Shown: one piece after another, positions 237-35,887 of the stretch | How positions within the stretch are numbered: the stretch's first letter is position 1 | How the letters are laid out: every line of letters starts with the position of its first letter | Origin: Pseudonocardiaceae bacterium | GTDB taxonomy: Bacteria; Actinomycetota; Actinomycetes; Mycobacteriales; Pseudonocardiaceae | Direction: 5' to 3' | NCBI GenBank assembly: GCA_009377865.1 | Contig: WHTH01000015.1 | Location: 1-64,000, forward strand | Length of the DNA: 64,000 bases | The notes under the pieces: model-generated | Databases searched by the model: none | What the model was told of the DNA's origin: nothing | What the model saw: the letters and a program-made list of their open reading frames with translations, nothing else | Translations under genes and position numbers: made by a program

Positions 237-2930
237 ATGGACGCGCAGTACGAGGCCTTCTGCTTCGTCGACCCGGATTTCTACGACGTGCCCGGCGGCC
301 ACAACATCGCCGACAGCGGCTGTTTCGACATCGTCGGCAAGCCGACGCCCGGTGGCTGGACGAGAAATCAGCTCGGAATCTGGCTGGTGCTGCGACCGGA
401 AGGTGTCACGCTGCCCGAGCAAGGCTGGAAGGTGCACGTCGCGGCGTGCCCGGGCAACGCCGCGGAGGTGCTGGACCGGGTCTGGGCCTACTGCGTCGGC
501 AACCTCGTCGCATTCAAGTACCTGTGGAGCCCTACCGTCCTCACGACGGCGCCCAGGAACCACTCCTCAGCCGCAACTCGAAGTACGCCGGGCGGGAAGC
601 CAGCGGCAAGTTCGTCACCATCTACCCCCGCAACGAGCGGGAATTGCAACAGATCTGCGATGAACTCGGCGCCGAGCTGAGCGGCCAGGCCGGGCACTAT
701 GTGCTCAGCGACCTGCGGTGGGGGAGTGGTCCACTGTACGTCCGCTACGGCGGTTTCACCGACCGGCTCTGCGCTACCCCCACCGGGGAACTGGTGCCTG
801 CGATCGCCCGGCCCGACGGGACGTTGGAACCGGATGCCCGACGACCGGTCTTCGCTCCACCGGAGTGGGTCGAACTCCCGGATTTTCTGCGCCCGCACCT
901 CACCGCGCGCACCGGTCCGTCCCCCCGCGCGATGCCCTACCGGATCGTCCGCGCGCTGCACTTCTCCAACGGTGGCGGGGTGTACCTGGCGCACGGTCCC
1001 GGCACGGCGGAAAACGACGACCCCGCCGTGGTGTTGAAGGAAGCCAGACCGCATGCGGGGCTGGACCGCCACGCGGTCGACGCCGTCACGCGCCTCGCCC
1101 GCGAGGCGAATCTGCTGGGCCGGCTCGCAGGTATCGACGGGGTGCCGCAGCTGCTGAGCCGCTTCACGGTCTGGGAGCATCACTTCATCGCCATGGAGCA
1201 CGTCGAGGGACGGCCGTTGGGGCAGTGGATGGCCCGGCATTACCCGCTGAGCCGGTCCGGCGACGACCCAAGCAGGCTCGCGGACTACACCCGGCGCGCG
1301 CTCACGCTGCTGCACCGGCTCGAGCTACTGCTCGAGCGGATCCATGAACGCGGCGTAGTCCACGGCGACCTGCACCCGCGCAACATCCTCGTCGATGAGG
1401 ACGAGCAGGTGTCACTGGTGGACTTCGAGCTCGCCTGGGATGTCGAGCGGCCGGTGGCTCCGGGGCCTCGGCGCTCCCGGCTTCACCGCTCCGGCTGATC
1501 GAACCGGCCGGCAGGTCGACCGTTACGGCCTCGCCGCGTTGCGACTGTTCCTGTTCCTACCGCTCAACGCGATCCTCGCGATGGAGCCGGCCAAGGCGGC
1601 CCAGTATCTCGCTGCCATCGAACACCGCTTTCCGCTGCCTGCGGGGTATACCGACGCGGTGCGTCGCGAGCTGAGCAGCGCCGGTGACGGAGCTGCTGCA
1701 ACGCCACCCCAGCACGACACGGCCAGCCCCGGACCGCCTGGCGGCGCGCTTGTGGCCCGGATCGGTACGGACTGGGCCGGTGCCCGCGACTCGCTCGTCG
1801 AGGCCGTGCTGCTCAGCGCAACCCCAGCCCGCGTTGACCGGCTGTTCCCCGGCGACGTCGCGCAATTCGCGTCCGGTGCAACGAACCTGGCGCACGGGGC
1901 GGCCGGGGTGCTGCACGTGCTGGACGCGGTGGGAGCCGGACGGTTCGCCGACCACGAGCAGTGGCTGCTCGGAGCCGTCACCAGCAGCCCACCCCGCCGG
2001 CCAGGCCTCTACGACGGATCGGCCGGGGTGGCCTGGCTGCTGCAGCGGTTCGGCCACCACGAGGTGGCCACCGCCGAGCTGGACCGGCTACTCGACTCAT
2101 TGCCCCGGGTGCACGACACAAGCCTGTTCGGAGGGCTGGCCGGCATCGGGACCGCGCTGCTGGAGCTGGCCGCGCTACGCGGACAACCGCAGCTGGCCGA
2201 GGCGGCGGCGACAGTGGGCATGCGGGTTGCCGCCACGCTGGACGTCAAGGCCCGCGAGAACACAGCGGCGACGCGGACCCGGGCAGGGTTGCTGCGCGGA
2301 TGGTCCGGACCGGCGATGCTGTTCCTGGAGCTGCATCAGCACACCGGCGACGCGAGGTGGGCCGAGCGCGCCGAGCAGGCGGTTGTCCGCGACCTCAACG
2401 GCTGCGTGACGACGCCTGATGCGACGTTGCAAGTCAGCGATGGTGATCTGCGAACCCTGCCGTACCTGGATGTGGGTAGCGCCGGCATCGCCCTCGCGCT
2501 GGCCCGGCTCGCCACGGTGCGGCCCCATGCCGTTGCCGTTGCCGTCGCGTCGTTGCCTGCGCTGCTGCGGGCATGCGAGGCGGAGTTCGTCGTGCAGCCG
2601 GGGCTGTTCGCGGGCCGGGCCGGGCTGGTCGCCGCGCTGGCCGCCGTGCGCCGCATCGCCACCGGACCGGCAGCTGACCCGGAGCAGCGAATAACGCGTG
2701 CACTTGACCGGCACCTGGACCGGTTCGACTGGCACGCGCTGCGTTACCGGGGGCAGCTGGCGTTTCCCGGCAACCAGTTGCTGCGGCTGTCGATGGACCT
2801 GGCGACCGGCAGCGCCGGCGTGCTGCTCGCCGCGTCCACCGCCCTCGACGACCACCTGCCCATACCGCTGCTGCCCGGGGTGCTGCCGCACCCGGCGCGG
2901 GCCGCCGACCCGATGGCGGCGGTCCCCTGA
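237..2930 (+). pseudogene. lanKC: Class III lanthipeptide synthetase LanKC (RamC/AmfT-like), two compensating frameshifts
   Basis: LanKC enzymes phosphorylate Ser/Thr of a precursor peptide, eliminate phosphate and cyclise Cys onto the dehydro residues. Joined across frames, about 898 codons show a lyase-like N-terminus (to about residue 200, with NSKYAGREASGKF and FVTIYP), a kinase region (catalytic loop HGDLHPRN near residue 375, DFE near 395) and a LanC-like cyclase domain (about 520-890) with no obvious zinc-ligand set, as in class III enzymes. The frame changes near 530-560, where the sequence also looks longer than expected, and changes back near 1465 in a run reading cggggcctcgg. The two shifts cancel, so the C-terminus returns to the original frame. 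The start ATG at 237 follows GGGGAGG. Precursor and transporter genes follow in ram/amf order. Either the enzyme is dead or the indels are sequencing errors. Confidence 0.85.
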
Positions 2931-2988
2931 ACGTCCGGTGCCCTATCACCGGCCGGTGCAACGAGTCTCCCGACGAGAGAGGTGTCCG

Positions 2989-3099
2989 ATGTCCGAAGTA
3001 CTGGAGTTGCAGGCAATGGAGACGATCGACGCGGCGCCGTCGCACGGCCGCGACTGCGACGGCGACGACCAGAGCGGTCTGAGCCTGCTGCTCTGCTGA
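2989..3099 (+). CDS. Class III lanthipeptide (SapB-like) precursor peptide, 36 aa
   Basis: This small gene encodes a 36-residue peptide: a leader containing VLELQAMET, which matches the conserved ILQ-type recognition helix of class III leaders, and a core ending SGLSLLLC at the stop codon. Ser29, Ser32 and Cys36 make one S-x2-S-x3-C motif, the pattern used for a labionin or lanthionine ring. SapB has two such rings, the first reading SRASLLLC; here translation stops directly after the first ring. An additional Cys23 lies in the leader/core junction. A GAGAGG ribosome site lies about 7 nt upstream. It sits between the LanKC gene and two ABC transporters, as ramS/amfS does. Confidence 0.85.
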   Translation: MSEVLELQAMETIDAAPSHGRDCDGDDQSGLSLLLC

Positions 3100-3118
3100 G
3101 GTTCCGCCGCGTGAACAC

Positions 3119-3145
3119 GGCGGTGGCGCGCCAAGCGCCACCGCC
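3119..3145 (+). terminator. Hairpin between lanthipeptide precursor and transporter genes
   Basis: A perfect 11-bp inverted repeat (3119-3129 GGCGGTGGCGC, 3135-3145 GCGCCACCGCC) encloses a 5-nt loop, 19 nt after the precursor stop and about 36 nt before the transporter start. It has no U-tract. By analogy with other RiPP operons it may stabilise the precursor mRNA or attenuate transcription into the transporters; that role is inferred. Confidence 0.7.
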
Positions 3146-3181
3146 CGCACGTGGCACCGAGCGAGGCGGGAGGGCCGGCCG

Positions 3182-4917
3182 ATGACGTCGACACCGGCGC
3201 ACCGCCTGCTGCTGTCCAGCGCCACCCGCGCACCGGCGTGGCTCGTCACTGCGGTGGTCGCCGCGGCTTGCGGTGTGGTGGGTGCGCTGCTGCTCCCTGC
3301 GGCGTTGGCTGCTGCGGTGGACACCGCGATTGCTGCGGCCCGGCGACCGGAGGCCGGCCCGGGCGCGGCGGATCTCGTCCTCACCCGGGCGACGGTCTGG
3401 CTGCTCGCGCTCGCCCTCACCGTCGCCGTCGCCAACGCGCTCTCCGAGCTGGCGGCCGGATGTGCCGTGGCTACCGGCACGGCCTGGCTGCGCCACCGGC
3501 TAGCCCGTCACCAGTTGCAGCCGGTGCTGCCCGTCCGACGGGGCGACCCCGGTGACGCCGTCAGTCGACTGGTGGGCGATGCGGCGCAGGCCGGTGCGGC
3601 ACCCACCATCGTCATCTCGCTCACCTCAGCCGCGATCATGTCGGTCGGTGCGCTGATCTGGCTGGCGATGCTGGGATGGCAGCTCGCCGTGGCGTTCCTG
3701 GTGGGTGTCCCGGTGGCGGTGCTGCTGGCCCGCCGCTTCCTGCACCAGACGGCCGGGCACGCGTTGCACTACCAGCGAAGCGCCGGGCAGCTGTCGGGGC
3801 TGCTGACCGATGCCGCCGCGGGGCTTCGCACGATCGCCGCCTGCAACAGTGCCGATCGGGAGACTTCGCGGGTGCTCGCCCCGCTGCCGCAGCTGGCGAT
3901 GGCGGGGCGGGCGCTGTGGCGGTCGCAGTCCGGCCTCGCTTGGCGGGCGGGTCTGGTCATCCCGGCGGTCGAGCTCGGGGTGCTCGCCGCCGCCGGCGAT
4001 CGGCTGGCACGTGGCGAGCTCACCGTCGGACAGCTGCTGGCGGCCGCGGCATACGCGGCTCTCGGGCTGAGCTTCCTGCAGCAGGCCGGGCTGCTGATGC
4101 GACTGTCCAGCGCGGCGGCGTGTGCCCGGCGGCTGTGCGAGGCGATGAGCGACGCGCCGTGCGAGCCGGGGTGGCACCGGCTGTCGCCGGGTCCCGGGCG
4201 GCTGGAGTTGCGCGAGGTCAGCCTTTCCGCCGACGTAGCTGGTGGTGAACCCGTCGCGCTGCTGCGCGACGTGACACTGACGGTGCCCGCCGGTGCCACC
4301 GTCGCGGTGGTGGGGCTGTCGGGATCGGGCAAGTCGGCGCTGGCCGAGGTGGCAGGCGGGCTCCGGGTTCCCGATACCGGGGAGGTGCTGCTCGACGGCT
4401 GGTCACTGGCCGGGATCGACCCCGACGAGCTGATCGAGGCCGTCGGCTACGCGCCCGCCCGCCCCGCGCTGCACGGCGCCACCGTCGCTGGGTCGCTGTG
4501 CTACGGCGACCTCGTGACGTACTCCCAGATCACCGCTGCCGCTCGCACCGCCCAAGTGCACGAGCCGATCAGCCGGCTGCCGGAGGGTTACCGCACCCCG
4601 CTCGCGCAGCTGGCGGTGGCCGGTGGCGAGTTGCAACGTCTCGGGCTGGCGCGGGCGCTGCTGCACCGCCCCGCCTGCTGGTCCTCGACGATGCCACCTC
4701 CAGTCTGGACACCGTCACCGAAGCGCGGCTGGCCAGCACCGTGGCGACCGCGCTGCCCCGCACCACCCGGCTCATCGTCACCCACCGGCGCGCCACTGCC
4801 GCCCGTGCCGACCTGGTGGTGTGGCTGTGTGACGGCGCGGTAGCAGCGGCGGGCCCGCACCGAGCGTTGCTCGAGATGCCCGGCTACCGCGCCATGTTCG
4901 CCGTGGGTGCGACGTGA
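3182..4917 (+). pseudogene. Lanthipeptide ABC exporter 1 (RamA/AmfB-like), one frameshift
   Basis: A fused membrane-plus-ATPase half-transporter, about 578 codons. The first 300 residues are a six-helix exporter domain and the rest an ATP-binding domain. Walker A (GLSGSGKS, near residue 380) is present. The signature is degenerate (VAGGELQR in place of LSGGQ). The frame breaks near 4670 in a C-rich run: the protein continues one frame over with a good Walker B (LLVLDDATSSLD), H-loop (VTHRR) and a natural C-terminus ending at 4917. A single missing base explains it, so this may be a functional gene with a sequencing error. The stop overlaps the next transporter start by 4 bp (GTGA). By context it would export the processed lanthipeptide with its partner. 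Confidence 0.8.
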
Positions 4918-5968
4918 GTGGGTGGCGGCTGTACGTCATAGCGGTGCTCGCGCAGCGCCGCGGGCTGACAGTGCTGGCACTGTGCTCGCTGGCCGAGGCG
5001 GCCCCCGCCTTCCTCGGCCCGCGGCTACTCGGGCGGGCCATCGACGAGGGGTTCATGGCGGGCCGGTGGGCGGTGGGACTCGGCTGGTTGGCTGCCTTCG
5101 GAGCTGCCGCCCTGGTCGGCGCGGCCGGCGCCGGTGGCTGCTTCGCTGCGCTCGCGCACGTCGTCGAGCCGGTCCGTGACGCACTGGTCAGCGCGATGGT
5201 GGCCGGAGTACTGCACCGCGGTGCCGCCGATCCGGAGCGCGCCGGCTCACCCGCCGCGGCCGTCGCCGGAATCACCCGCCACGTCGAGATCGTCCGTGAC
5301 GTCACCGCTGGGTTGCTGGTGCAGGGGCGTTCGTTCGTCGTCGTCACACTGGCGGCGCTGGCCGGGATGGCGACCCTGGCGCCCGAGCTGGCGCTGCTTG
5401 TCGCCGCCCCGTTGCTGGCGACGCTGCTGCTGTTCGGACTGCTGCTGCGGTCGCTGGTGCGGCGGCAACGCAGCGTGGTGCTCGCTGACAAGGACATCGC
5501 AGTGACGGCCGAGCGGATGTGCCGCGGGCTGCGCCCAGCGGCGCCGGTAAGTCCACGCTCGCGAGCCTGCTGACGGGCGTGACGACGCCACAGCGGGGCA
5601 CGGTGACGCTGGGCGGAGTCACCGTCGGGCGGGTCCGCACCGGTACGCTGCCGCTGCTCGCGTTGATCCCGCAGCAGGCCTACGTGTTCACGGGCACGCT
5701 GCGGGAGAATCTGACCTACCTGCAGCCGGCCGCCACCGACGGCTAGCTGCACGTCGCCGCTGAGTCGCTGGGAGCCACGACGCTGCTCTGGGGACTCGAT
5801 GCCCCGGTGGGGGAGCTGTCTGCGGGGCAGCGGCAGCTCGTGGCGCTGATCCGGGTCTACCTTTCCGATGCCGAGGTCGTGGTGCTGGACGAGGCGACCT
5901 GCCACCTCGACGCTGCAGCACGGGGGGGGGGGGAGCGCGGTCGGGTGCGAACCCGGGTGGCGCGGTAA
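4914..5968 (+). pseudogene. Lanthipeptide ABC exporter 2 (RamB/AmfA-like), multiply broken
   Basis: Second half-transporter of the ram-like operon. About 200 residues of membrane domain read well from the GTG at 4914. Near 5515-5540 the sequence jumps in another frame straight to Walker A (PSGAGKST), so over 100 residues of the membrane-to-ATPase linker appear deleted. The ATPase part continues (IPQQAYVFTGTLREN) to an in-frame TAG at 5744-5746. It then reads on in the same frame with the signature LSAGQRQ and Walker B VVVLDEAT, and loses the H-loop region at a run of twelve G. An in-frame stop lies at 5966. Three separate lesions make this a convincing pseudogene even if some of the indels are errors. 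Confidence 0.85.
5922..5933. repeat. Twelve-base G homopolymer
   Basis: A run of 12 G lies inside the damaged ATPase domain of exporter 2, directly after Walker B. Such a tract is prone to polymerase slippage and to sequencing or assembly error, and the downstream homology is lost here. Confidence 0.95.
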
Positions 5969-7020: not shown

Positions 7021-7359
7021 CTACAGGGAAAGTGCGTTGCGCAGGGCCTGATCCACGCGCCGCATGGTGGGCGGCCGAAGGGCGCCGCGATCACGAGTGA
7101 TCTCGTCGTGGAATACGGCCACGATGTCGTCGCACAACACGCGTCCGGTGAACGGCGCATCGGCCGATTCGAGTTCGACGATGCTGTCAAGGGCCGGTTT
7201 CGGGCTCGTGGTGATCCGGACTGCCAGAAAACTGGTCAGCTTGCGGTTGCGCTGGTTGTTCGAGATCACGAGGTAGTACTTCTCGGGGAGATCTTCGAGT
7301 AGTGCTCCGTAGACGCGGCCTCGAACGATCGGCGAGCTTCTGGCGGGCGAGTTGGTCAC
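7021..7359 (-). CDS. MazF/PemK-type mRNA interferase toxin
   Basis: A 112-residue protein with the family's N-terminal strand pattern: IVRGRVYGALL, then KYYLVISNNQRN and FLAVRITTSPK, with SIVEL further on. Family members cut mRNA or tRNA when freed from their antitoxin. Length is typical. Its ATG overlaps the stop of the upstream antitoxin gene by 4 bp (ATGA), so the two are translationally coupled with the antitoxin first. Cleavage specificity cannot be read from sequence. Confidence 0.8.
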   Translation of the reverse strand: MTNSPARSSPIVRGRVYGALLEDLPEKYYLVISNNQRNRKLTSFLAVRITTSPKPALDSIVELESADAPFTGRVLCDDIVAVFHDEITRDRGALRPPTMRRVDQALRNALSL

Positions 7360-7655
7360 GTCTCATCGCGCCAGGCATCGAGTTGCCGGCGCCGAGTAGT
7401 GCGCACTTCCCGCTCGCCCTCCGCTGTCTGCTGGGCTGCCAGGGCCTCGTAGCCCGACTCCCGAGCATGTTCGCGGACGGCCTCGATGCCCACCGAGAGC
7501 AGAGCGTGGAGCAGCGCCGCTTTCGACGTGCCGACATCGGGGACGAGGTCATCGAGTGCGGTGCGTTCCAGAGTTCCCTGTTGCGTCAGGCGGTCCAGCA
7601 ACATGGCCTCAGTCGAGGTCACGGGCACGCTCTCGCGCCGTACAGGTGCAGACAT
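7356..7655 (-). CDS. Antitoxin partner of the MazF-like toxin
   Basis: A 99-residue helical protein, rich in Ala, Leu, Glu and Arg, directly before and overlapping the toxin gene. Its N-terminal half probably binds DNA (TSKAALLHALLSVGIEAVREHA) and its charged C-terminal half probably wraps the toxin, as in other MazEF-type pairs. The family was not identified from sequence alone; the assignment rests mainly on gene order and overlap. A -10-like hexamer lies only 7 nt before the ATG, which suggests a leaderless transcript. Confidence 0.7.
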   Translation of the reverse strand: MSAPVRRESVPVTSTEAMLLDRLTQQGTLERTALDDLVPDVGTSKAALLHALLSVGIEAVREHARESGYEALAAQQTAEGEREVRTTRRRQLDAWRDET

Positions 7656-23435: not shown

Positions 23436-24440
23436 GGGCGCAGACGGTACCGCCGGGTCGGGGCGGTATGCCTGACGAGCGCCCGCGCACCGCGGTCCAC
23501 CGTGGCTACCGGCCCATCGGATCGCGGCCGGCCCCGTCGCTGTATGCACTGCGGAGCGGATCCGCGAATCGGAAGCCGCCGCCGGCCAGAGCGAGCAGAA
23601 ATCCGCCGGAGCGCAACCCGCCCTGGAAGCCCTGCGCGCGGCCGTAGGCCTCGTCGGGCACCGGCCAGCAGCGGCAGCACGATCAGCGCCGGCACGATCA
23701 GTGCCGTACCGGCGCCGGCGGCCCGAGCACGAGCAGGGAAGCGGCGCTGCGACGAGCTCAGCCCCCCGCCGTCCTCGCGACGGTCGTTGCCTGCCCGCTG
23801 ATCGCCCGCGGCCGAATCGCACTTGCGCCCGGCTCACCGCGGCAGGCTATTGCCTACCGGCGGGTGGAGACGAACCGGCAGCCGCATTGATGCGAACACG
23901 GCGAGCGGCGCTGCGCCGCCGGGCATGTCGAGGGTGGCCTGTAATCGAACGAGGCGCTCGTCGACGCGAGTGTTCATAACTGCCTGTTACCAGACCGTGC
24001 GCCGGTAACCTGCGGGTGTTCGTGTACGTTCACAATCAGTCGTAGCGAGTCGAGGTGGTCGCGCAGCGTGACCTCGGACGGCGCCTCCACCCAGTCGTCG
24101 GGCTGCTCTCACACACTCACAGCCACACGCTCACTCGTGGTCGCCGGTGAGCCGATCCGGACACCGCGTGACGATCACCCGACGGGCCTTCTCCGGTGGG
24201 GAAAACCGTTCTTTGGCCGTAGCCGCCGCTCCGGCTGCACCGCGCACTCCTGGCCTCTTGACCGGCGGCGGCGCCCTATCGGACGCCGGGACCGATGAAA
24301 TCCTCGTGCCCGGGAGCTACTCCTGAGCCTCTTGACACCTAAGACGCAGCAGTGTCCACTACCTGTTGTGAGTCGGGCCACACCTATGCGTGGTCAGCCG
24401 GGTCCCACGGGGCCGCAACCGGAGTCGAAGGGGACAGGCG
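23436..24440. other. Gene-poor 1-kb region with degraded fragments
   Basis: No intact gene is convincing here. Two stretches on the minus strand read like protein fragments: 23518-23715 (see separate entry), and about 24020-24110, where DDWVEAPSEVTLRDHLDSLRL appears without a start or domain context. The remaining frames are Arg/Pro/Ala-rich shadows. A promoter for the plus-strand gene at 24441 should lie near the right end. Confidence 0.5.
23518..23715 (-). pseudogene. Possible remnant of a membrane transporter gene
   Basis: On the minus strand LIVPALIVLPLLAGA is followed, after a frameshift, by PDEAYGRAQGFQGGLRSGGF and about 30 further residues to a TAG. The composition and the EAYGRAQGF-like sequence suggest the end of a multi-helix transporter (perhaps MFS), but there is no start and too little sequence for a firm assignment. 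Confidence 0.3.
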
Positions 24441-24830
24441 ATGGCAATCGAGTCGACCGGGCACAGCCAGGGCAACCCCCGCTTGTACGAGCTGGTCGAG
24501 CACACTCCGAAGACCGGGCAGAGCCCGACCATCTGGGCTTGGCCGGAAGTCATCGACTTCTTCAGAGTCGCGGGACAGCCGGTCCCGGGCCCATGGCCGC
24601 CGCACCAGACGCCCAGGCCGGAGCCGGAGGAGGAGAGCCTCCCCACCGCGGTGCCCGACCCCCAGAGCGCCGCCGAGCATCGCCCCACGAACCAGCGCCC
24701 GGCAAGCCAGGACACGACAAGCCAGGGCGCGGCCGACGAGGGCGCGCATGCGACGCCGATGAACAGTCCCCGCCACTACCTCGACGAGCAGCCGGCAGGC
24801 AGTCAGCACAAGGGCTACCTCGACAAGTAG
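24441..24830 (+). CDS. Hypothetical Pro/Gln-rich protein
   Basis: A 129-residue frame starting MAIESTGHSQGNPRLYELVE with GGGGA 5 nt upstream. The first 55 residues look globular (TPKTGQSPTIWAWPEVIDFF). The rest is disordered and rich in Pro, Gln, Ser and Ala, ending in HYLDEQPAGSQHKGYLDK. There is no signal or membrane segment. It lies 120 bp before coxM and could be co-transcribed with the CO dehydrogenase genes, but I do not recognise the family. Confidence 0.55.
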   Translation: MAIESTGHSQGNPRLYELVEHTPKTGQSPTIWAWPEVIDFFRVAGQPVPGPWPPHQTPRPEPEEESLPTAVPDPQSAAEHRPTNQRPASQDTTSQGAADEGAHATPMNSPRHYLDEQPAGSQHKGYLDK

Positions 24831-24950
24831 CCCTTTCCCGGGAACAGCCACGATTGCAGGCTGCCAGTCAATGGCTCACTGGTGGAGTCGTGACTGCAGC
24901 GTTTCTGCTCCCTCGTCGAGGCACAAGTTTGAAGAACTAGGAGGATTTGA

Positions 24951-25817
24951 ATGTACCCGTCTCGTTTCCGCTACGAGGCCCCACGCTCGCTCGACGAAGC
25001 GCTCGACTTTTTGCGGGTTTACGGTGACGAGGCGAAGGTGCTCGCGGGAGGCCAGAGCCTCATTCCACTGATCAAGCTGCGCTTTGCCTCGATCGAACTT
25101 GTCGTCGACATCAACAACATCCCCGGCTTGGATTACCACCGCCAGGAGTCGGACGGCTCGCTGAGCTTCGGCGCGCTGTGCCGTCACGTCGACCTGGAGC
25201 ACTCCGAGCTGCTCCGGAGAAGCCAGCCCACCATGGCCGCCGCGGCGCCGCTGATCGCCGATCCCATCGTCCGTAACCGAGGGACGTTGGTCGGCTCGCT
25301 GTGCCACGCGGACCCGCAGGGCGACTGGGCATCGGTGATGATGGCGCTGGGTGGTGAGATCATCGCGGCCGGACCCGGGGGCAGGCGCACCATCCCCGTG
25401 TCGGACTTCATCATGGGGCCGTTTCAGAACGCGCTGCGACCGGGAGAGATCGCGGTGGAGGCGCGGGTCCCGGCGCCGAAGGGCGCGGTGTCGGGTAACT
25501 ACCTCAAGCTCGAACGCAGGGTGGGCGACTTCGCCACCGTGGGAGTCGCAGTGGCGCTCGAGACGTCCGGTTCGACGGTGAGTCGCGCCGGCATCGCGCT
25601 GACCGGCGTCGGGCCGTCGAACATCCAGGCGACGGCGGCCGAGCAGGCGCTGGTCGGCAGCGCCCTGAACGCGAACTCGATCCAGCAGGCAGGCCGGCTG
25701 GCGGCGGAGGCCGCCCAACCCAAGACCGACCACCGTGGTAGCGCGGAGTACAAGCGCCACGTGGTCGAGACGTTCGTCACGCGTGCGTTGGGTAGCCGCG
25801 GGGCCGTAGCGGCCTGA
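24951..25817 (+). CDS. coxM: Aerobic CO dehydrogenase, FAD-binding medium subunit
   Basis: A 288-residue flavoprotein subunit of the molybdenum CO dehydrogenase (CO + H2O to CO2, electrons passed through FAD to the respiratory chain). The first domain has [15 protein letters not shown] (about residues 30-44) for FAD diphosphate binding, the second [18 protein letters not shown] (about 106-123). The C-terminal domain ends in VETFVTRAL. Length is normal. AGGAGG lies 7 nt before the ATG. It is the first gene of the M-S-L order found in all aerobic CODH operons, 47 bp before coxS. Confidence 0.92.
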
Positions 25818-25864
25818 TTGCGGACCAGCATCGTCCAAGCAATGGCGACGTCAAGGAGGGCTAC

Positions 25865-26356
25865 GTGGAAGAGCGGCGGGTAACTGTCGAAGTCAACGGT
25901 GATACCAAGACCGCCGAGGTCGAGCCTCGGCTGCTCCTCGCCCATTTCCTCCGGGAAGCACTGGGGCTGACCGGTACGCACATCGGTTGCGACACGACGA
26001 ACTGCGGCGCGTGCACCGTGCTCTTCGATGGTAAGCCCATCAAGTCCTGCACGATGTTCGCCGTCCAGGCCGACGGCCATGAGGTCACCACGGTCGAGGG
26101 TCTGAGCATGGCGAGCGAGCTCCATCCCGTACAGGAGGGGTTCAAGGAAGAGCACGGGTTGCAGTGTGGCTTCTGCACGTCCGGGATGATGATGACTGCC
26201 ACGGCGCTCCTCGAGGAGAACCCGAATCCGACGGAGGAGGACGTGCGCTGGGCGCTGTCCGGCAACCTCTGTCGCTGCACCGGGTACCAGAACATCGTGA
26301 AGTCGGTGCTGTGGGCCGCGGAGAAGATGCGCTCCGAAGGCGTCGTCAGGCGCTGA
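25865..26356 (+). CDS. coxS: Aerobic CO dehydrogenase, [2Fe-2S] small subunit
   Basis: A 163-residue iron-sulfur subunit that relays electrons from the molybdenum site to FAD. The N-terminal plant-ferredoxin domain has [17 protein letters not shown] and a following SC; the C-terminal helical domain has QCGFCTSGM and [11 protein letters not shown], so all eight cluster cysteines are visible. The GTG start at 25865 follows AAGGAGG. It is 41 bp before coxL. Confidence 0.95.
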
Positions 26357-26397
26357 CGGCGAGAGCTGACGACAGCTGATGATAAGGGAGAAACGAG

Positions 26398-28782
26398 ATG
26401 GCGCAGGCGCTTGACGAGATCAAGATCGGCGGATTGGGCTCGAGCCGCAAGCGGGTCGAGGACGACCGCTTCCTCCGAGGCGTGGGCAACTACACCGATG
26501 ACTTCAAGCTGACCGGCATGCTGCACATGGAGATCCTCCGCAGCCCTGTCGCCCACGCGCGGATCAAGTCGATCAACACGGCCAAGGCGTGGCAGATCCC
26601 CGGTGTGCATCTCGTGCTCACCGGTGAGATGGCCGCCCAGCACAACCTTGCGTGGATGCCGACGCTGTCCTACGACACGCAGCCGGTGCTCGCGACCGAC
26701 AAGGTGCGCTACCAGGGCCAGGAGATCGCCTGTGTGGTCGCCGACGACCCATACATCGCCAAGGACGGCTGCGAGGCCATCGAGGTCGAGTACGAGCCGC
26801 TGCCCGCGATCGTCAGTCCGCAGCAGGCCGTTGCGGCGGACGCGCCGTTGATCCGCGACGACAAGGAAGGGCAGAACGACAACATCTGCTACCGCTGGGA
26901 GGTCGGTGACAGAGAAGGTACCGAGCGAGCCTTCGCCCAGGCGGACATGGTCTCGTCGCTGTCGCTGCACTACCCGAGGTCGCACCCGTCGCCGATCGAG
27001 TGCTGCGGGTCCATCGCGGACTACAACCCCGCGACGACGAAGCTGACCGTGTACATGACCACCCAGGCGCCGCACATCATCCGGACGGCGGTGGCGCTCG
27101 TGGCCGAGCTGCCCGAGCACATGATCCGGATCATCTCGCCGGACATCGGTGGCGGGTTCGGTAACAAGGTTCCGGTCTACCCGGGATACGTGGCGTCGAT
27201 CCTGTGCTCGATCCTGCTCGCGCGACCGGTCAAGTGGATCGAGGACAAGTCCGGCAACCTCATCTCCACCCATTACGCGCGCGACATGTACATCCGGGGT
27301 GAGCTCGCCCTCCGCAAGGACGGTAAGATCCTCGCCACGCGCATCCACGCCGACACCGACAACGGTTCCTCCTTCTCCGACGCCCAGCCCAGCAAGTTCA
27401 AGATCGGGCTGTTCCACTCCGCGTTCGGTTGCTACGACATTCCGTACGGCTACCAGACGGCCCAGGGCCACTACACCAACAAGGCGCCGGGGGGTGTGGC
27501 GTACCGGTGCTCGTTCCGCATCACCGAGGCGATGTTCTTCCAGGAACGGATGATCCATGCTGCTGCCGACGACCTCGGCATGGACCAGGCTCAATTCCGC
27601 CGGGTCAACCTCGTCAAGGACGACCAGTTCCCGTATCGCACCCCCTTCGGCTTCCTGCTCGACTCGGGGCAGTACGAGAAGTGTCTGGACGTCGGGCTCG
27701 ACGCTATCGGCTACGACGAATTCCTCCGCGAGAAGGAGCAGGCCCGGTCCCGGGGCCGGCGGCTCGGCATCGGCATCTCCACGATGAGCGAGCCACTCGG
27801 AGCGGGCAACAGCCGCGAGTACGACATCCTGGGCATCAAGATGTTCGACGCCGCGGAGCTGCGGGTACACCCGAGCGGCAAGGCCATCCTGAAGATCGGG
27901 GCGAAGACCCAGGGACAGGGTCACGAGACGACGTTCGCGCAGATCGTCACCCACGAGCTCGGGATCCCGGCCGCCGACATCCTCGTCGAGCACGGAGACA
28001 CCGACCACACGCCGTTCGGCATGGGGACCTACGCCTCCCGCAGCACGCCGGTCGCAGGAGCCGCCACGGCCATGGTCTCACGCAAGATCCGCGCGAAGGC
28101 CAGGAAGCTTGCGGCGCACCTTCTCGAGGTGTCGGAGGAGGACGTCGAGTGGGAGCTGGGTCGCTTCTACGTGCGGGGCGCTCATGACCGCGGTGTGACC
28201 ATCCAGGACTGCTCGATGGCCGCCTACACCAACATGCCCGACGGCCTCGAGCCAGGGCTGGAGAACAACGCCTACTACGACCCCCCGAACCTCACGTGGC
28301 CGTTCGCGGCCTACATCGTGACGGTCGAGGTCGACCCGGAGACGGGTGTGTGGGACGTGCTCCGAATGGTGGCCGTCGATGACTGTGGTGTCCGCATCAA
28401 CCCCATGATCGTCGAAGGTCAGATCATGGGCGGGATGACCGAGGCCTATGCCATGGCAAACATGCAGTTCATGACCTACGACGCCGAAGGTAACTGCGTC
28501 GGGTCGAACTACATGGACTACCTGTTGCCGACCGCATGGGAGACACCCGGCTTCGAGCTGCACGAGGTCGTGACTGCGTCGCCACATCACCCCATCGGCG
28601 CCAAGGGCGTCGGAGAGTGCGCCTGCGTCGGCGGGCCGGCCGCATTCGTCAACGCCGTGCTGAATGCCATCGACGACACCGGGGTGCGCAACATCGACAT
28701 GCCGTTGCTGCCTGACCGGGTGTGGGAGGCCATCCAATACAAGCACGACATCTCTGGTGCACCTCCGGTCAAGACCGGCTGA
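26398..28782 (+). CDS. coxL: Aerobic CO dehydrogenase, molybdenum large subunit, form I
   Basis: A 794-residue catalytic subunit. The loop AYRCSFR lies at residues 368-374, with Cys371 as the expected ligand of the Cu-S-Mo centre; this motif distinguishes true (form I) CO dehydrogenases from form II and from other molybdenum hydroxylases. The molybdenum-contacting glutamate is in GVGECACVGG (Glu740). GGGFGNK and the QGQGHETTFAQI cofactor loop are also present. Length matches the family and no frameshift is seen. Together with coxM and coxS this predicts that the organism can oxidise CO, possibly at trace levels. Confidence 0.95.
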   Translation: MAQALDEIKIGGLGSSRKRVEDDRFLRGVGNYTDDFKLTGMLHMEILRSPVAHARIKSINTAKAWQIPGVHLVLTGEMAAQHNLAWMPTLSYDTQPVLATDKVRYQGQEIACVVADDPYIAKDGCEAIEVEYEPLPAIVSPQQAVAADAPLIRDDKEGQNDNICYRWEVGDREGTERAFAQADMVSSLSLHYPRSHPSPIECCGSIADYNPATTKLTVYMTTQAPHIIRTAVALVAELPEHMIRIISPDIGGGFGNKVPVYPGYVASILCSILLARPVKWIEDKSGNLISTHYARDMYIRGELALRKDGKILATRIHADTDNGSSFSDAQPSKFKIGLFHSAFGCYDIPYGYQTAQGHYTNKAPGGVAYRCSFRITEAMFFQERMIHAAADDLGMDQAQFRRVNLVKDDQFPYRTPFGFLLDSGQYEKCLDVGLDAIGYDEFLREKEQARSRGRRLGIGISTMSEPLGAGNSREYDILGIKMFDAAELRVHPSGKAILKIGAKTQGQGHETTFAQIVTHELGIPAADILVEHGDTDHTPFGMGTYASRSTPVAGAATAMVSRKIRAKARKLAAHLLEVSEEDVEWELGRFYVRGAHDRGVTIQDCSMAAYTNMPDGLEPGLENNAYYDPPNLTWPFAAYIVTVEVDPETGVWDVLRMVAVDDCGVRINPMIVEGQIMGGMTEAYAMANMQFMTYDAEGNCVGSNYMDYLLPTAWETPGFELHEVVTASPHHPIGAKGVGECACVGGPAAFVNAVLNAIDDTGVRNIDMPLLPDRVWEAIQYKHDISGAPPVKTG

Positions 28783-28797
28783 AGACGGATCAGTCCG

Positions 28798-29790
28798 ATG
28801 ACCATGGATGGGTGGGATGTCCTCGAACACGCTCGCGAGCTGTCGCAGCGTGGCGAGGCCTTCGCGCTGGCGACCGTCGTGTGGCGGCGTGGCCCGTCCT
28901 CGGCTAAGCAGGGCTGCCGAGCCATCGTCACCCCTGCGGGTGCGGTGTACGGCTGGATCGGCGGCGCCTGCGCGGAGCCCACTGTCGTCCGTGAGGCGCG
29001 GCACGCCCTGGCCGAGGGCGTGCCGCGCCTTGTGTTCCTCGGGACACCCGACGAAGTCGCGTCGGTGTCTCGCGACGGGATGACATCGGTACCGATGTCG
29101 TGCCAGAGTGAGGGAGCACTGGAGGTCTACATCGAACCTGCGGAACCCAGCCCTCATCTCGTTGTCGTGGGACGCTCGCCGATGGCCGAGACCCTCGTTG
29201 TGCTGGCGCAGGGCATCGGATGGCGCACCGTGCTGGTGGATCTTGACGGGTCGTCACGAGAGGACCATCCCAGCGCCGCCGCGGTCGTCAACGGTCTCGA
29301 TCTCGAAGCGGCGGGTGTGCACCAGCGGTCACTCGTCGTGGTGGCCACACAGGGTCACCATGACGAGGAGGCCGTGGAATGGGCGCTGGCGGCGGGACCG
29401 GCTTACGTGGGTCTCGTGGGCTCCCGCAAGCGCGGCGCCTCGGTGCTCGACTTCGTGCGGGAGCGGGGCATCTCCGGTGAGGCTCTCGAGCGCGTGCACC
29501 TACCGGCCGGGCTCGACCTGGGGAAGATCTCGCACCGGGAGATCGCCGTCGCGATCCTCGCGGAGCTCGTGCAGCTGCGGGCCGCCGGCGCGCTGGCCGA
29601 CGGGATGTCGGCGGAGATCCCCGAGGTAGCGGAGGCGACGGATCCTGTCTGCGGCATGACGGTGGAGATCCGTACCGCTCGCCATACCACCGATCATGAG
29701 GGTCTCACCTACTACTTCTGCTGTCCTGGATGCCGCAAGTTGTTCGAGGACGACCCTGCCGCCTATACCGCGTCCGGGGTGAGGTCATGA
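28798..29790 (+). CDS. XdhC/CoxF-type molybdenum cofactor maturation protein fused to a YHS domain
   Basis: A 330-residue protein beginning 15 bp after coxL. Residues 1-260 are an XdhC/CoxF protein: N-terminal ATVVWRRGPSSAKQGCRAIVT and GWIGGACAEPTVV, then a Rossmann part with LVVVGRSPMAETLVVLA and YVGLVGSRKRGASVLDF. Residues about 282-325 form a YHS domain (DPVCGMTVEI, YYFCCPGCRKLFEDDPAAY), known to bind metals. XdhC-type proteins bind and sulfurate molybdenum cofactor; in CODH the YHS part might help handle copper or sulfur for the Cu-S-Mo centre, which is inference. Confidence 0.88.
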   Translation: MTMDGWDVLEHARELSQRGEAFALATVVWRRGPSSAKQGCRAIVTPAGAVYGWIGGACAEPTVVREARHALAEGVPRLVFLGTPDEVASVSRDGMTSVPMSCQSEGALEVYIEPAEPSPHLVVVGRSPMAETLVVLAQGIGWRTVLVDLDGSSREDHPSAAAVVNGLDLEAAGVHQRSLVVVATQGHHDEEAVEWALAAGPAYVGLVGSRKRGASVLDFVRERGISGEALERVHLPAGLDLGKISHREIAVAILAELVQLRAAGALADGMSAEIPEVAEATDPVCGMTVEIRTARHTTDHEGLTYYFCCPGCRKLFEDDPAAYTASGVRS

Positions 29791-29833
29791 ACCGCACCAG
29801 CGGATACTGTCAGCTGCTGAGGAGTGTGAAGCG

Positions 29834-30406
29834 TTGCTGATCGAGAACGACATCGAGGTCGCCGCCCCGGTGGACCAGGTGTGGAACTACATGCTCGACG
29901 TTCCACGTATGGCGCCCTGTATCCCAGGGGCCGAGATCACGGAGAATCTCGGCGGCGATAAGTACAAAGGCAAGGTCACCACAAAGATGGGGCCGGTGAC
30001 GCTGCGCTTCCTGGGCGACGCGGAGATAGTGGAGCAGGACCAGAGCGGCAAACGGATCGTGATGAAGGCGGCCGGGTCCGAGGAGAAGGGCAAGGGCCAG
30101 GCCAACATGACCATGACCACGACGCTGAAGTCCTCGGGCACCGGTACCAAGATCAACGTCACGCAGGATCTCGACCTATCGGGCGCCGCCGCCCAGTACG
30201 GCAGAGGCATGATCGAGGACGTCACGAGCACCCTGATGAAGAGCTTCGCGGGCTGTATCCAGGAGGACGTCGGCAGGGCGAGCCGGGGCGAGGCCCGCGC
30301 GGATGGCAGTACCGCAAAACCGATGAGCGGTTTCAGCATCGGCATGCAGTCGATGATGACGGCTCTCAAGCGGTTCTTCCGCCGGCTGTTCGGGGGCGGC
30401 GCGTGA
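29834..30406 (+). CDS. coxG: CoxG, SRPBCC-fold CO dehydrogenase accessory protein
   Basis: A 190-residue protein. The first 150 residues are a START/SRPBCC-fold domain typical of CoxG (IEVAAPVDQVWNYMLDVPRMA, PCIPGAEITE, DLDLSGAAAQYGRGMI). The tail is positively charged (LKRFFRRLFGG), suited to contact membrane lipid. CoxG proteins help bring CODH to the membrane and its quinone acceptor. The start TTG at 29834 is chosen because GAGGAG lies 9 nt upstream and the N-terminus then matches the family. Confidence 0.85.
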   Translation: MLIENDIEVAAPVDQVWNYMLDVPRMAPCIPGAEITENLGGDKYKGKVTTKMGPVTLRFLGDAEIVEQDQSGKRIVMKAAGSEEKGKGQANMTMTTTLKSSGTGTKINVTQDLDLSGAAAQYGRGMIEDVTSTLMKSFAGCIQEDVGRASRGEARADGSTAKPMSGFSIGMQSMMTALKRFFRRLFGGGA

Positions 30407-30440
30407 GGAAGGTCCCGGTAGACCTGACAGCGAGAGGAGA

Positions 30441-30707
30441 GTGCAGAACATGCTGCTGTGGTGGATAGGCAATGCCATCATGCTCTTCGTGGTGTTACCC
30501 GTGGTTCTGGTGTTGTTGAACCGTATACTCGCACCGGTAGAGCGAATCAAGAAGACGACGGACGAAATCTTGGCGCACGGCGCCGTCCTGACCGGCCATC
30601 TCGACAACGTGCCGGAACTGCTGGCCAAGACCGACGAGACCGTGCATGAAGTCGCCGTCGGTGCGACGCGCTACGTGAAGCGTGTCGGAGCCCTACTGGA
30701 TGGTTGA
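30441..30707 (+). CDS. Small single-pass membrane protein of the cox operon (1 of 5)
   Basis: An 88-residue protein: one N-terminal membrane helix (IGNAIMLFVVLPVVLVLLNR) and a cytosolic amphipathic helical segment (PVERIKKTTDEILAHGAVL, ending TRYVKRVGALLDG). The start is GTG at 30441 or ATG at 30450, with GAGAGGAG upstream. It follows coxG by 34 bp. The topology (one helix then a long cytosolic helix) recurs in four further genes downstream. Function is unknown; anchoring or electron transfer for CODH is suggested by context only. Confidence 0.75.
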   Translation: MQNMLLWWIGNAIMLFVVLPVVLVLLNRILAPVERIKKTTDEILAHGAVLTGHLDNVPELLAKTDETVHEVAVGATRYVKRVGALLDG

Positions 30708-30749
30708 TATGGGTCGACCTGATCACACGACCGATGAAAGGAGGAGATC

Positions 30750-30977
30750 ATGCCCCCAGCCGCATGGGCGACACTGCTGATCTCGGCACTGATCATTGCT
30801 GTCACCGGTTTGGCCCTGCTACGGGTGATCCTCATGCTGCAGCACGTCAGCTTCACCCTCGGCACGGTTATCGTGGGTGTCCGCGCGATCGCCCATCAGA
30901 CCCGGGCCGTACCACCGGCCATCGAGTCGGTGAACGCGAACCTCGCCCCGGTGAGGTCCGCGGCGGAACAGGTGTAG
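30750..30977 (+). CDS. Small single-pass membrane protein of the cox operon (2 of 5)
   Basis: A 75-residue protein with one membrane helix (WATLLISALIIAVTGLALLR) then an amphipathic segment (HQTRAVPPAIESVNANLAPV). AAGGAGG lies 7 nt before the ATG, a very strong ribosome site. The C-terminus ends abruptly in RSAAEQV and could be shortened. It has the same topology as the other small proteins in this operon. Confidence 0.75.
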   Translation: MPPAAWATLLISALIIAVTGLALLRVILMLQHVSFTLGTVIVGVRAIAHQTRAVPPAIESVNANLAPVRSAAEQV

Positions 30978-31044
30978 AAACGCCACGTGCAAGTGGCAGC
31001 GATGTGCCCGATGGGCGGGTCGACCGTGGAAGGGAGCCGCAGGA

Positions 31045-31220
31045 TGCAGCGGTTTTATTGAAGGGGCGACGCAGGAGCCGAGTGCGACGCGGAGTTCACT
31101 GCCACCAGCAGGGAGGATCTGATGCGTCAGATTCGTCAGCACGTGGTGGAGGATCACGGGGTCGAGAATCCTAGCCAGACGGTTCTCGACTTCATTGCGT
31201 CGACCACGCGAGAAGACTGA
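31045..31220 (+). pseudogene. Broken DUF1059 copy
   Basis: The ATG at 31045 begins MQRFY, then meets a TGA at 31060. A missing base near 31078 shifts the frame, after which QCDAEFTATSREDLMRQIRQH and VLDFIASTTRED read clearly to a TGA at 31218. It is a sibling of the intact DUF1059 gene 150 bp downstream (shared CD..., then DLMR.I.QHV..., then T.L...AST). Both a stop and an indel are needed to explain it. Confidence 0.7.
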
Positions 31221-31367
31221 GGATCCGCTCGGCTCGGTGAGCCGAGACCAACGCAACAGTAGAACAGGTTTGACCAGCCGGTTCCCGCACCGATCGGTGC
31301 GCGACCGGAGCCGAGAACGAGGGTCGGGAGTGCCGTCCATCGTCGGCGCACGGACAGGAGAGCGGAC

Positions 31368-31553
31368 ATGCAGGAGTTTCGTTGCGACAGTCCAGTGTGT
31401 GACAGCCACTTGACCGCATCGGACAAGAACGATCTGATGCGCAAGATCGAGCAGCACGTCAAGGATGTACACAAGGTCGAAAAGCCGACCCAGACGATTC
31501 TGAGCTACCTCGCCTCCACGGTGACCGAGGGATCGGGCGCGACGCGGCGATGA
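31368..31553 (+). CDS. DUF1059 small protein, 61 aa
   Basis: A 61-residue protein with the DUF1059 pattern: MQEFRCDSPVCDSHLTAS with two cysteines, then DLMRKIEQHVKDVHKVEKP, where His residues may complete a metal site. The ATG follows CAGGAGAG. Family members are predicted small metal-binding proteins of unknown role. A broken paralogue lies just upstream. Confidence 0.8.
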   Translation: MQEFRCDSPVCDSHLTASDKNDLMRKIEQHVKDVHKVEKPTQTILSYLASTVTEGSGATRR

Positions 31554-31599
31554 TGAAGCCGCAACGACAAGTAGCTACTGACGAGAGGAGGGCTGCTGG

Positions 31600-31881
31600 A
31601 TGACAATTCTTGCGCAGTCTGCGGCCGCGGAGCCGGACTTCTTCGGCTGGAACCTGGGGTTCGTCATCGGCATCGTGGTCGTGATGGTGGTGGTGGCTCT
31701 GGTCGCTCCGATCCTGGGGCTAGCAGGGCGAATCGGCAAGCAGGCGCCCATGATCAACGAGGCCCTGCAGCGCGCGCAACGTGACACCGCTGCGCTGGCG
31801 GAGCTTCGCACGACGATCGACCACGCGACAGTGATCATCGGAGGATTGCAACGGGGCCGCTCGCGGCTCGGAGGAGGTTAA
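31600..31881 (+). CDS. Small single-pass membrane protein of the cox operon (3 of 5)
   Basis: A 93-residue protein with a hydrophobic helix (FVIGIVVVMVVVALVAPIL) after a 20-residue N-terminal part, then a charged helical tail (PMINEALQRAQRDTAALAELR). GAGAGGAGGG lies upstream of the ATG. It is 2 bp from the next small gene, so the two are almost certainly co-translated. Function unknown. Confidence 0.75.
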   Translation: MTILAQSAAAEPDFFGWNLGFVIGIVVVMVVVALVAPILGLAGRIGKQAPMINEALQRAQRDTAALAELRTTIDHATVIIGGLQRGRSRLGGG

Positions 31882-31883
31882 TC

Positions 31884-32174
31884 ATGCCGCCGCAGGAAAT
31901 CACCTATTGGTGGGTGGTTCTGGGTTTCGGCTTCGTCGTCGTTCTTGTGGTCATCCTGCTGTTGAGCCTACTGGTGTCGCTGGTCAAGGTCATTGACCGC
32001 GGCGTGGTGGAGGTCCGCGACACGCTGCGCGCTGTCAAGGCGAACACGGCGAACACGGTCCTCATCCCGCAGACAGCTGACGGGGTCGATGCTGTGCTTG
32101 CCGAGGGCTTGCAGCACCACCTGTTCTTGGGTCGGGTGCTGTCTGGTGCCGGAACCCCGATCGGGAAGGAGTAG
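31884..32174 (+). CDS. Small single-pass membrane protein of the cox operon (4 of 5)
   Basis: A 96-residue protein with one long membrane helix (VVLGFGFVVVLVVILLLSLL) and a cytosolic tail with VKVIDRGVVEVRDTLRAVK, then LQHHLFLGRVLSGAG. The ATG follows GGAGG with 6-nt spacing. It is 2 bp before the fifth small gene. Function unknown. Confidence 0.78.
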   Translation: MPPQEITYWWVVLGFGFVVVLVVILLLSLLVSLVKVIDRGVVEVRDTLRAVKANTANTVLIPQTADGVDAVLAEGLQHHLFLGRVLSGAGTPIGKE

Positions 32175-32176
32175 AG

Positions 32177-32542
32177 GTGTCGTTACTCGTCGTGCTGACG
32201 GTCGCCCTCATCACGCTGCTCATCGCAGTGCTGGCGATCTACCTCTTCTGGGTCGGGGTGCTGCTCAAGCGCGTTGCGGACAATCTCGATGACTGTTGCG
32301 AGAGCGTCCAGACCATCGAGGGTCATGCGGAGCTGATCATCCCCGGGATCGAGCACATCAACCGGAGCGGTGGGATCGTGGCTGGCGCGCTGCCGCTGCT
32401 GTACGGCCATGCCGAGCGGATCCAAGCCAAGCTCGCGCCCGCACCACAGGCGCCGGCGAACGGCGGCTCCGCGGCTCGGGCGTCCAGCCGTCGGCGGTCG
32501 CGGCTGGCAGAGGCAGTGGGATTCGAGCCCCCTAACCAGTAG
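32177..32542 (+). CDS. Small single-pass membrane protein of the cox operon (5 of 5)
   Basis: A 121-residue protein, GTG start at 32177 after AAGGAG. One membrane helix (VVLTVALITLLIAVLAIYLF) is followed by a helical segment (KRVADNLDDCCESVQTIEGH) with a Cys-Cys pair and an Arg-rich, probably disordered tail. It is the last gene of the plus-strand cox run and is followed by a long hairpin. Function unknown. Confidence 0.75.
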   Translation: MSLLVVLTVALITLLIAVLAIYLFWVGVLLKRVADNLDDCCESVQTIEGHAELIIPGIEHINRSGGIVAGALPLLYGHAERIQAKLAPAPQAPANGGSAARASSRRRSRLAEAVGFEPPNQ

Positions 32543-32608
32543 TCCCATGGCCGGGGAGGCGATGCGTGATGGGCAGGTACGGGCGCTCCTCCTCCGCTTT
32601 TCCGGACG

Positions 32609-32649
32609 GCTGCTGTAGCGGCTGCTGCCGCAGCAACCGCTACAGCGGC
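32609..32649. terminator. Bidirectional terminator between the convergent cox gene runs
   Basis: TGTAGCGG (32614-32621) pairs with CCGCTACA (32637-32644). Inside, TGCTG/CAGCA pair around a CCG loop; outside, the stem extends about five more pairs. The hairpin overlaps the stop codon of the minus-strand gene at 32640 and lies 67 bp after the last plus-strand small gene. Confidence 0.8.
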
Positions 32650-33080
32650 TGCTCGTCGGGTCCCCGAGGGGCGAGCGATGTCGTGTCCGCCGACGAGTAG
32701 TCGCCGATCCACTCGTCCTTCCACGCCTTGTCGTATTTCTCCTCATTGCAGTGTGGGTCGTAGATCGCCATCAGCTCCTGGGCGATCATCTCCCGATGCC
32801 CCTGCGTACCACCCGGAACCTCGAAGGTGCAGATATAGACCTTCCACTTCGAGCCGGCGCGCTGCAGCCAGCAATGAGCCCGCGGATGTTTGAAGGGGAA
32901 CCCCTCGGTGGTGAGGTCCTCGGAGTGCCCGACGTAGATGACCGCGTAGTTCTCGGGCTTGGTCTCAGGTTCGGGTTTGTAGACAATGACGAAGACCGCC
33001 GGCTTGCTCGGTGGCGTCCAACCGCCGAGGACCATTGGCCCGTCGAACGAGTAGCCTGCCAGCGTTCCGAGACGGATCAT
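32640..33080 (-). CDS. Conserved protein, possible GIY-YIG-like fold
   Basis: A 146-residue protein, last gene of the minus-strand cox accessory run. VFVIVYKP, YAVIYVGHSEDL, a Trp/Arg-rich middle, HREMIAQELMAIYDPHCNEEK and KDEWIGDY follow the order of a GIY-YIG-type domain (two strands, basic helix, Glu helix, closing PxCN), but the classical GIY/YIG tyrosines are only partly kept. It could be a nuclease-like or non-catalytic protein. Its role beside coxD/coxE is unknown. Confidence 0.7.
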   Translation of the reverse strand: MIRLGTLAGYSFDGPMVLGGWTPPSKPAVFVIVYKPEPETKPENYAVIYVGHSEDLTTEGFPFKHPRAHCWLQRAGSKWKVYICTFEVPGGTQGHREMIAQELMAIYDPHCNEEKYDKAWKDEWIGDYSSADTTSLAPRGPDEQPL

Positions 33081-33162
33081 GTCCAGCCACCAGCCTTCAT
33101 CGGTGTCGATTGTCCATTATTCCTGAGGCACTGATCGAGTTCGCCGACCCGGAGGGGGTCAG

Positions 33163-33438
33163 TCAGTCGTCCTCGTCCTCGCTGATGGCCTCGGTCCGGA
33201 CGATCGGGAAGACCGGAAGGCCCGCCTTCGCGACGGCTTGGGCGAACTCCTCCTTGCCCTTGGCGATCGCCTCGTCTCGGGAGTCTGCGAACACCACGAC
33301 CTGCGCCCCATAGCGGTTCGTGCCGATTCCGGTGGCGATACCGCCACAAGGGGCGACCGCGTCGGCGAGCTCTAGCACCTCGTCGTGTTCCATCTCGCGA
33401 TCCCCGGCGGTCTCGATCCCGACACTCCATCTGATCAT
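33163..33438 (-). CDS. Hypothetical small acidic protein in the coxDE run
   Basis: A 91-residue protein, start MIRWSVGIETAGDREMEHDE, with a compact alpha/beta core (GIATGIGTNRYGAQVVVFADS, then DEAIAKGKEEFAQAVAKAG) and an acidic C-terminus. There is no signal or membrane segment. It lies 15 bp after coxE, so it is likely co-transcribed. I do not recognise the family. Confidence 0.7.
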   Translation of the reverse strand: MIRWSVGIETAGDREMEHDEVLELADAVAPCGGIATGIGTNRYGAQVVVFADSRDEAIAKGKEEFAQAVAKAGLPVFPIVRTEAISEDEDD

Positions 33439-33453
33439 TGCGGTTCATGCCTC

Positions 33454-34599: not shown

Positions 34600-34626
34600 C
34601 GGTGCTAGCCGGATTCACGAGTCGTT

Positions 34627-35502: not shown

Positions 35503-35554
35503 GGGGCGATCTCCTCATCCGCCTGACGCCGGCATTGACGTGCGTGCTGGTTGG

Positions 35555-35887
35555 CTACTGCTTCGGCTCCGACTTGAAGACGAGATCCCGCACGGTGCGC
35601 GCGTCGGAATCGAGCTTGCCCTCGCGCTCGAGCTGGCTCTTCCAGGCGGAGCGCACGTTGTTGCCCACCGAGTGACTGTCGTTCGTCGGTGTCTCGTCAT
35701 CGTCGGCCAGGCCGTCGAAGCCGACATTCGACATGCTCTTGCAGGTCTTCGTGTTGCCGCATGACTCGTCGATGTCCGCGCTGGTCTGCTCCCGCGCGTC
35801 CCAGACGCCGCGCAGCACCGAGAGCGCCTGCTTGCCGTCGTCGGGCAGCTCGTCTGTCGTCTTAGCGTTGTCGTGCTGCTGGCTCAT
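35555..35887 (-). CDS. Hypothetical acidic protein
   Basis: A 110-residue hydrophilic protein, start MSQQHDNAKTTDELPDDGKQ with GAGAGG 9 nt upstream. It contains CGNTKTCKSMSNVGFDGL (two cysteines) and the C-terminal segment SDARTVRDLVFKSEPKQ. There is no membrane segment and probably little fixed structure. It sits between sodA and coxD on the same strand. Family unknown. Confidence 0.65.
   Translation of the reverse strand: MSQQHDNAKTTDELPDDGKQALSVLRGVWDAREQTSADIDESCGNTKTCKSMSNVGFDGLADDDETPTNDSHSVGNNVRSAWKSQLEREGKLDSDARTVRDLVFKSEPKQ

Follow-up and report, generated by a model that had tools for sequence, protein, structure and literature searches.

The window, a 64-kb stretch of DNA, is the first part of the 67.3-kb contig C72 in a draft genome (G000) of 4.0 Mb and 121 contigs. 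Pfam scans and homology alignments resolve the locus at 237-5921 into the gene order LanKC, precursor, ABC, ABC, which is the order of SapB/AmfS loci (Table 1). An earlier note, made from the sequence alone, had proposed this order together with a ram/amf-type class III identity; both are borne out, the identity by a precursor score of 26.1 bits against NF033212 (SapB/AmfS, cut-off 25). Downstream of the precursor stop, a GC-rich hairpin folds at -48.9 kcal/mol (z -4.05; 1 of 200 shuffles equally low), with outer pairing extending to about 3106-3155, and is a possible attenuator. Near the broken locus, a PemK/MazF-like toxin gene (PF02452) lies on the minus strand at 7024-7655, and an ORF upstream of and overlapping it may encode the antitoxin. 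Farther along, at ~23760-35600, two 5.9-kb chunks with GC fractions of 0.665 and 0.642 rank 54 and 57 of 57 in tetranucleotide composition and are perhaps an acquired island.

Table 1. Features of the ram-type locus (positions in the 64-kb window)
Feature	Coordinates	Strand	Evidence
LanKC, class III lanthionine synthetase, broken at ~540-567 and 1463	237..2930	+	RamC_N, kinase, LANC_like; frameshift-tolerant alignments
Precursor peptide, 36 aa	2989..3099	+	NF033212 match; alignment with relatives
GC-rich hairpin, candidate attenuator	3119..3145 (inner stem)	+	fold of 3095-3170
ABC exporter 1, one break near 4664-4667	3182..4917	+	ABC_membrane, ABC_tran; three relatives
ABC exporter 2, broken	4914..5921	+	ABC_tran pieces, partial ABC_membrane; alignment to relatives
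Run of 12 G, end of exporter 2; candidate technical join	5922..5933	+	genome-wide run comparison

LanKC retains all of its domains in a disrupted gene. The RamC_N domain (PF25816) is split over two frames (327-563 and 557-913), both pieces scoring above cut-off, and a Pfam scan detects the kinase and LANC_like domains in the LanKC pieces; lyase, kinase and cyclase domains are all present, but in separate frames rather than in a single open protein. Against NF038151 (class III lanthionine synthetase, cut-off 575), the pieces score 101, 429 and 433 bits, none reaching the cut-off, while the three segments read through score 1003.7 bits. Frameshift-tolerant alignment places both frame breaks against each of three intact LanKC references, and the lesion near 540-565 amounts to 20-odd additional bases.

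The same type of alignment locates the single break of exporter 1 in agreement with three relatives. Exporter 2, closest among three relatives to that of genome G020 (61% identity), is more heavily damaged: 141-148 residues are absent at 5531-5534, a smaller gap and a change of frame immediately precede this deletion, an in-frame TAG lies at 5744, and homology stops at 5920-5938 with the last part missing. Its ABC_membrane match is partial and below cut-off, and ABC_tran is found in pieces. The truncation coincides with the start of the 12-G run. The genome has just one further stretch of 12 G, in the 32-base tail of contig C102 (L194), which is all C and most likely technical. Searching the genome for the missing part of exporter 2 gave one match, on contig C115 (44% to the G020 query), which belongs to a second locus and was rejected. 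All the lesions that the earlier note had listed recur in these alignments: LanKC is frameshifted twice and exporter 1 once, and exporter 2 has a deletion, a stop and a truncation.

In contrast to its neighbors, the 111-bp precursor gene has its frame and start in order and encodes the leader motif VLELQAMET. The core carries one Sx2Sx3C motif, SGLSLLLC, and the stop directly follows Cys36, as first described. Ser18 and Cys23, which that description had passed over, lie upstream of the ring motif and could close another thioether, which makes the term 'single ring' uncertain here. The match to NF033212 covers model positions 3-31 of 42 and leaves positions 32-42 unmatched, with one Sx2Sx3C motif in place of two; the model tolerates a single ring, since L073, L139, L161, L072, L077 and L159 pass with one motif. 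Against NF038159 (lanthi_III_b), the precursor scores 27.3 bits, below the cut-off of 30, over positions 2-38 of 38. Between the Cys and exporter 1, none of the three frames contains a second S-x-x-S...C, which rules out a two-ring precursor cut by a stop or frameshift after the Cys. The contrast between intact precursor and broken enzymes is what chance predicts: with six lesions in the ~5.4 kb of LanKC and exporters, 0.12 lesions are expected in 111 bp and the escape probability is 0.88. Because so short a gene escapes the local lesion rate with ~88% probability, its intactness is no sign of selection.

Two alignments disagree on which ring was kept. NF033212 places SGLSLLLC at the first-ring position (within its 3-31 of 42 alignment), which is how the earlier note had read it. 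The relatives and NF038159 place the ring at the C-terminus, and the first-ring assignment is accordingly doubtful. The relatives whose endings are most like that of the window peptide (L160, L069, L144, L222 and L089) have, ahead of SxxSLLLC, a variable motif of the form S-H-x-S-(2 or 3)-C; the final motif of two-motif relatives reads SGLSLLLC, STLSLLLC or SHISLLLC. Since relatives end in SGLSLLLC-like motifs and Cys23 of the window aligns with their first-motif Cys, the retained motif most likely descends from the C-terminal one of an ancestor with two rings. Ser18-His19 falls off the first-motif S-H; the segment SHGRDC could nevertheless be a leftover of the lost first ring.

A one-ring core is not confined to this locus. 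A profile search finds RamC_N in 177 of 297 genomes of the bacterial family. Among 98 LanKC loci, hand-picked and mostly the best-scoring among the matches listed rather than a random sample, a precursor was called in 91; one of the seven loci with no call (L068) owes this to a contig end. To be called, a precursor needed a start resembling a leader and a Cys close to its end; some calls were assigned manually, many stretches are too short for both exporters, and a 20-base placeholder (L102) was dropped. Counted with one regular expression, 59 of the 91 precursors have at least two ring motifs, 27 exactly one and 5 none, leaving 32 without a second motif. A single Cys occurs in 17 of the 91, with Sx2Sx3C in 9 of them, Sx2Sx2C in 7 and no motif in 1; among multi-Cys precursors 11 have one motif and 4 none. 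In G101 (L073, SGLSLLLCG) and G153 (L072, SYASLLICP), a single-Cys precursor accompanies an open LanKC and two open exporters. The precursor of G015 (L161) ends exactly in SYLSLLLC beside an open LanKC, and the genes called over 14 kb there include no adjoining exporter pair. The G007 copy (L089), considered as a one-ring precursor ending in Cys, was rejected and counted as two-motif on account of an upstream SHNSGWC. Because one-motif precursors adjoin open LanKC genes, at two loci with both exporters open, the one-motif core is, as these neighborhoods indicate, a real and heritable design in the same bacterial family, which supports the substance of the single-ring proposal.

Several other architectures appeared in the survey. 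At L185 (G017), L190 (G085) and L098 (G002), LanKC accompanies a single-Cys precursor, and the genes that come next resemble AMP-ligase and ketosynthase by eye, possibly for an acylated class III product. L153, L154, L172, L220, L224 and L227 each offer several candidate precursors, which are very short, contain a single Cys and terminate in STVSxxC or SPISMGC. L215, from the single-contig genome G157, also has its LanKC in two frames, adjoining a six-Cys, His-rich precursor that ends WISVILGGGVCL; similar peptides are found at L150, L213 and L214.

The relationships of the window LanKC are distant. A tree built by a quick method from 80 rows, including 79 of the 98 surveyed loci, places it on a long branch, outside every starred set that spans half the rows or fewer. 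By tree path its nearest row belongs to G020, the owner of L160, which favors the C-terminal reading of the ring; the closest LanKC by cyclase, that of G151 (52%), speaks against it, as its precursor is of the ordinary two-ring type. On this tree the label 'one' requires 6 changes, at least 4 of them forced by starred branches; the label 'other' covers three-motif rows, uncalled rows and L165, whose two motifs were found later. No close orthologue was met among the family LanKCs compared, identity being at most 52-53% over most of the length. At this distance the ring loss is undatable. The single motif could itself be part of the decay, a two-ring ancestor having lost its first ring after the enzymes broke; the variable first and constant second motif of the relatives would fit such a course, as would SHGRDC if it is a leftover. 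Yet the family often pairs a one-motif precursor with an open LanKC gene, the Cys-terminal L161 among these cases, and the frame, start and leader of the window precursor are all in order, so this order of events appears somewhat unlikely.

The damage is local to this locus. A codon-frame scan raises 3 flags in the 6.0-kb locus (2 frame changes and 1 in-frame stop) against 16 in 383 kb of control (Poisson P 0.002), same-frame gaps being uncounted on both sides, control flags being taken straight from the scan, and the second LanKC break having passed as normal. Control sequence came from 58 kb elsewhere in the window, from the tail of C72 and from 19 further contigs, one stretch each. Real decay is the likely explanation, favored by the local density of lesions and by their kinds. 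The damage could alternatively be technical, thin coverage of a GC-rich locus at a contig end having produced frameshifts, a deletion and a G-run join in a cluster that is intact in the cell. The contig begins 237 bases before LanKC, the truncation falls on the 12-G run, the locus has a GC content of 72% against 69.7% and a tetranucleotide rank of 53 among 57 chunks of 5.9 kb (with two other window chunks more extreme), C102 in the same assembly ends in 32 C, and contig ends also cut a second ram locus in both G000 and its congener G001. Yet the lesions go beyond single-base slips, comprising 20-odd extra bases, the loss of 141-148 residues and an in-frame TAG, and the first 6 kb of the 19 other contigs carry 5 flags in total, at most one per contig. 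A technical origin is on this evidence unlikely. A literature search on decayed ram loci found nothing.

The genome also carries that second locus. At the right end of C115 (L195) lies a SapB-type exporter pair, of which exporter 2 is whole and exporter 1 runs off the contig end (60% and 73% identity to the G101 exporters). In the congener G001 this exporter arrangement recurs on C34 (L196), and a LanKC on C377 (L068) is cut by the contig start. C108 (L232) of G000 begins just upstream of where LanKC starts in G001, and C115 and C34 end 11 residues apart within exporter 1; gene order suggests that C377 and C34 are neighbors, as are C108 and C115, and assembly gaps seem to interrupt the locus in both genomes. 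As RamC_N occurs in G000 on C72 only, the second-locus LanKC presumably lies in such a gap. The sole RamC_N match in the 730-contig assembly of G001 belongs to this other locus, no orthologue of the window locus being found there, and its LanKC falls in another clade of the 80-row tree. Since the genome keeps a second ram-type locus shared with a congener, the window locus is, to judge from gene content, a divergent paralogue beside a better-preserved cluster.

Two readings give the window precursor a role in trans. One, which we consider improbable, takes the window as one member of an undescribed actinobacterial ram-type branch making a monocyclic SapB-like peptide, in which two-ring ancestors lost the first ring more than once and the window precursor, its own enzymes gone, is perhaps matured in trans by the second locus of the genus. 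The other, that the precursor is still used by the LanKC and exporters of the second locus, is very doubtful: that locus is present with exporter 2 whole and the window precursor is intact, but the second LanKC and precursor fall in an assembly gap, the congener LanKC is of another clade, and the intact 111-bp gene is expected by chance.

The reading we prefer, with somewhat better than even confidence, is a decayed SapB/AmfS-family class III lanthipeptide locus, a divergent paralogue whose single ring was inherited, most likely as the C-terminal one of an ancestor that had two. Loss of the first ring from that ancestor would have left behind Cys23 and perhaps Ser18. By analogy with characterized families, the leader of an intact version would dock on LanKC; in ThurKC, a LELQ-type leader motif is critical for binding (PMC10604976). 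LanKC would phosphorylate and dehydrate Ser29 and Ser32, a labionin or lanthionine would be closed with Cys36, and the peptide with its hydrophobic LLL ring would leave the cell through the paired ABC proteins to act as a surface-active morphogen. Such a role, which a hydrophobic ring would suit, is proposed for SapB (PMC13380574). As its reading frames stand, the window copy is predicted to be unable to make a full LanKC or either full exporter, and it probably makes nothing and is dead.

Comparison with other class III peptides sets the one-ring core in context. Lipolanthines, which contain avionin, have a C-terminal Cys, as does the window peptide, and their loci include a Cys decarboxylase and genes for an acyl chain. 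Neither kind of gene was detected in a Pfam scan of the LanKC pieces, the two exporters and the two right-hand neighbors, the left side being cut by the contig end. The window shares with SapB/AmfS the gene order, the leader motif, Sx2Sx3C and a passing family score, but differs in having one motif with nothing after the ring, and in its broken enzyme and exporters; according to the durhapeptin paper (PMC13380574), both SapB and AmfS contain two Lan units. Walker et al. give Sx2Sx3C as characteristic and SapB as the commonest precursor family (PMC7268733). The window peptide also runs to the end of the NF038159 model, at a score below its cut-off. Andalusicin and the ThurA1 product of Bacillus thuringiensis are class III peptides with one labionin ring, in andalusicin at the C-terminus, but they come from another phylum and have 11 dehydrated residues, N-methylation and antibacterial activity (PMC10604976, PMC11557216). 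The closest parallels are the one-motif precursors of the same family (L072, L073, L077, L161 and the L139 group), with a single Sx2Sx3C beside an open LanKC. Unlike the window peptide, these have no Cys besides the ring Cys, and L072, L073, L077 and the L139 group belong to another part of the LanKC tree and have one residue after the Cys, whereas L161, like the window, has none.

The window thus proves to be a broken member of a known family, and its one-ring core a real, repeated variant. No monocyclic SapB-type peptide from actinobacteria was found in a literature search whose coverage leaves out most subscription papers. One-ring members may already be annotated as SapB/AmfS without comment, since the NCBI annotation of that name covers more than 4,000 sequences according to the durhapeptin paper (PMC13380574). 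The window locus is mainly a fossil of locus loss, and the survey leads from it to intact one-ring loci. If one-ring ram-type peptides are made, they would offer a minimal morphogen for testing which part of SapB aerial growth requires, two amphiphilic rings or one.
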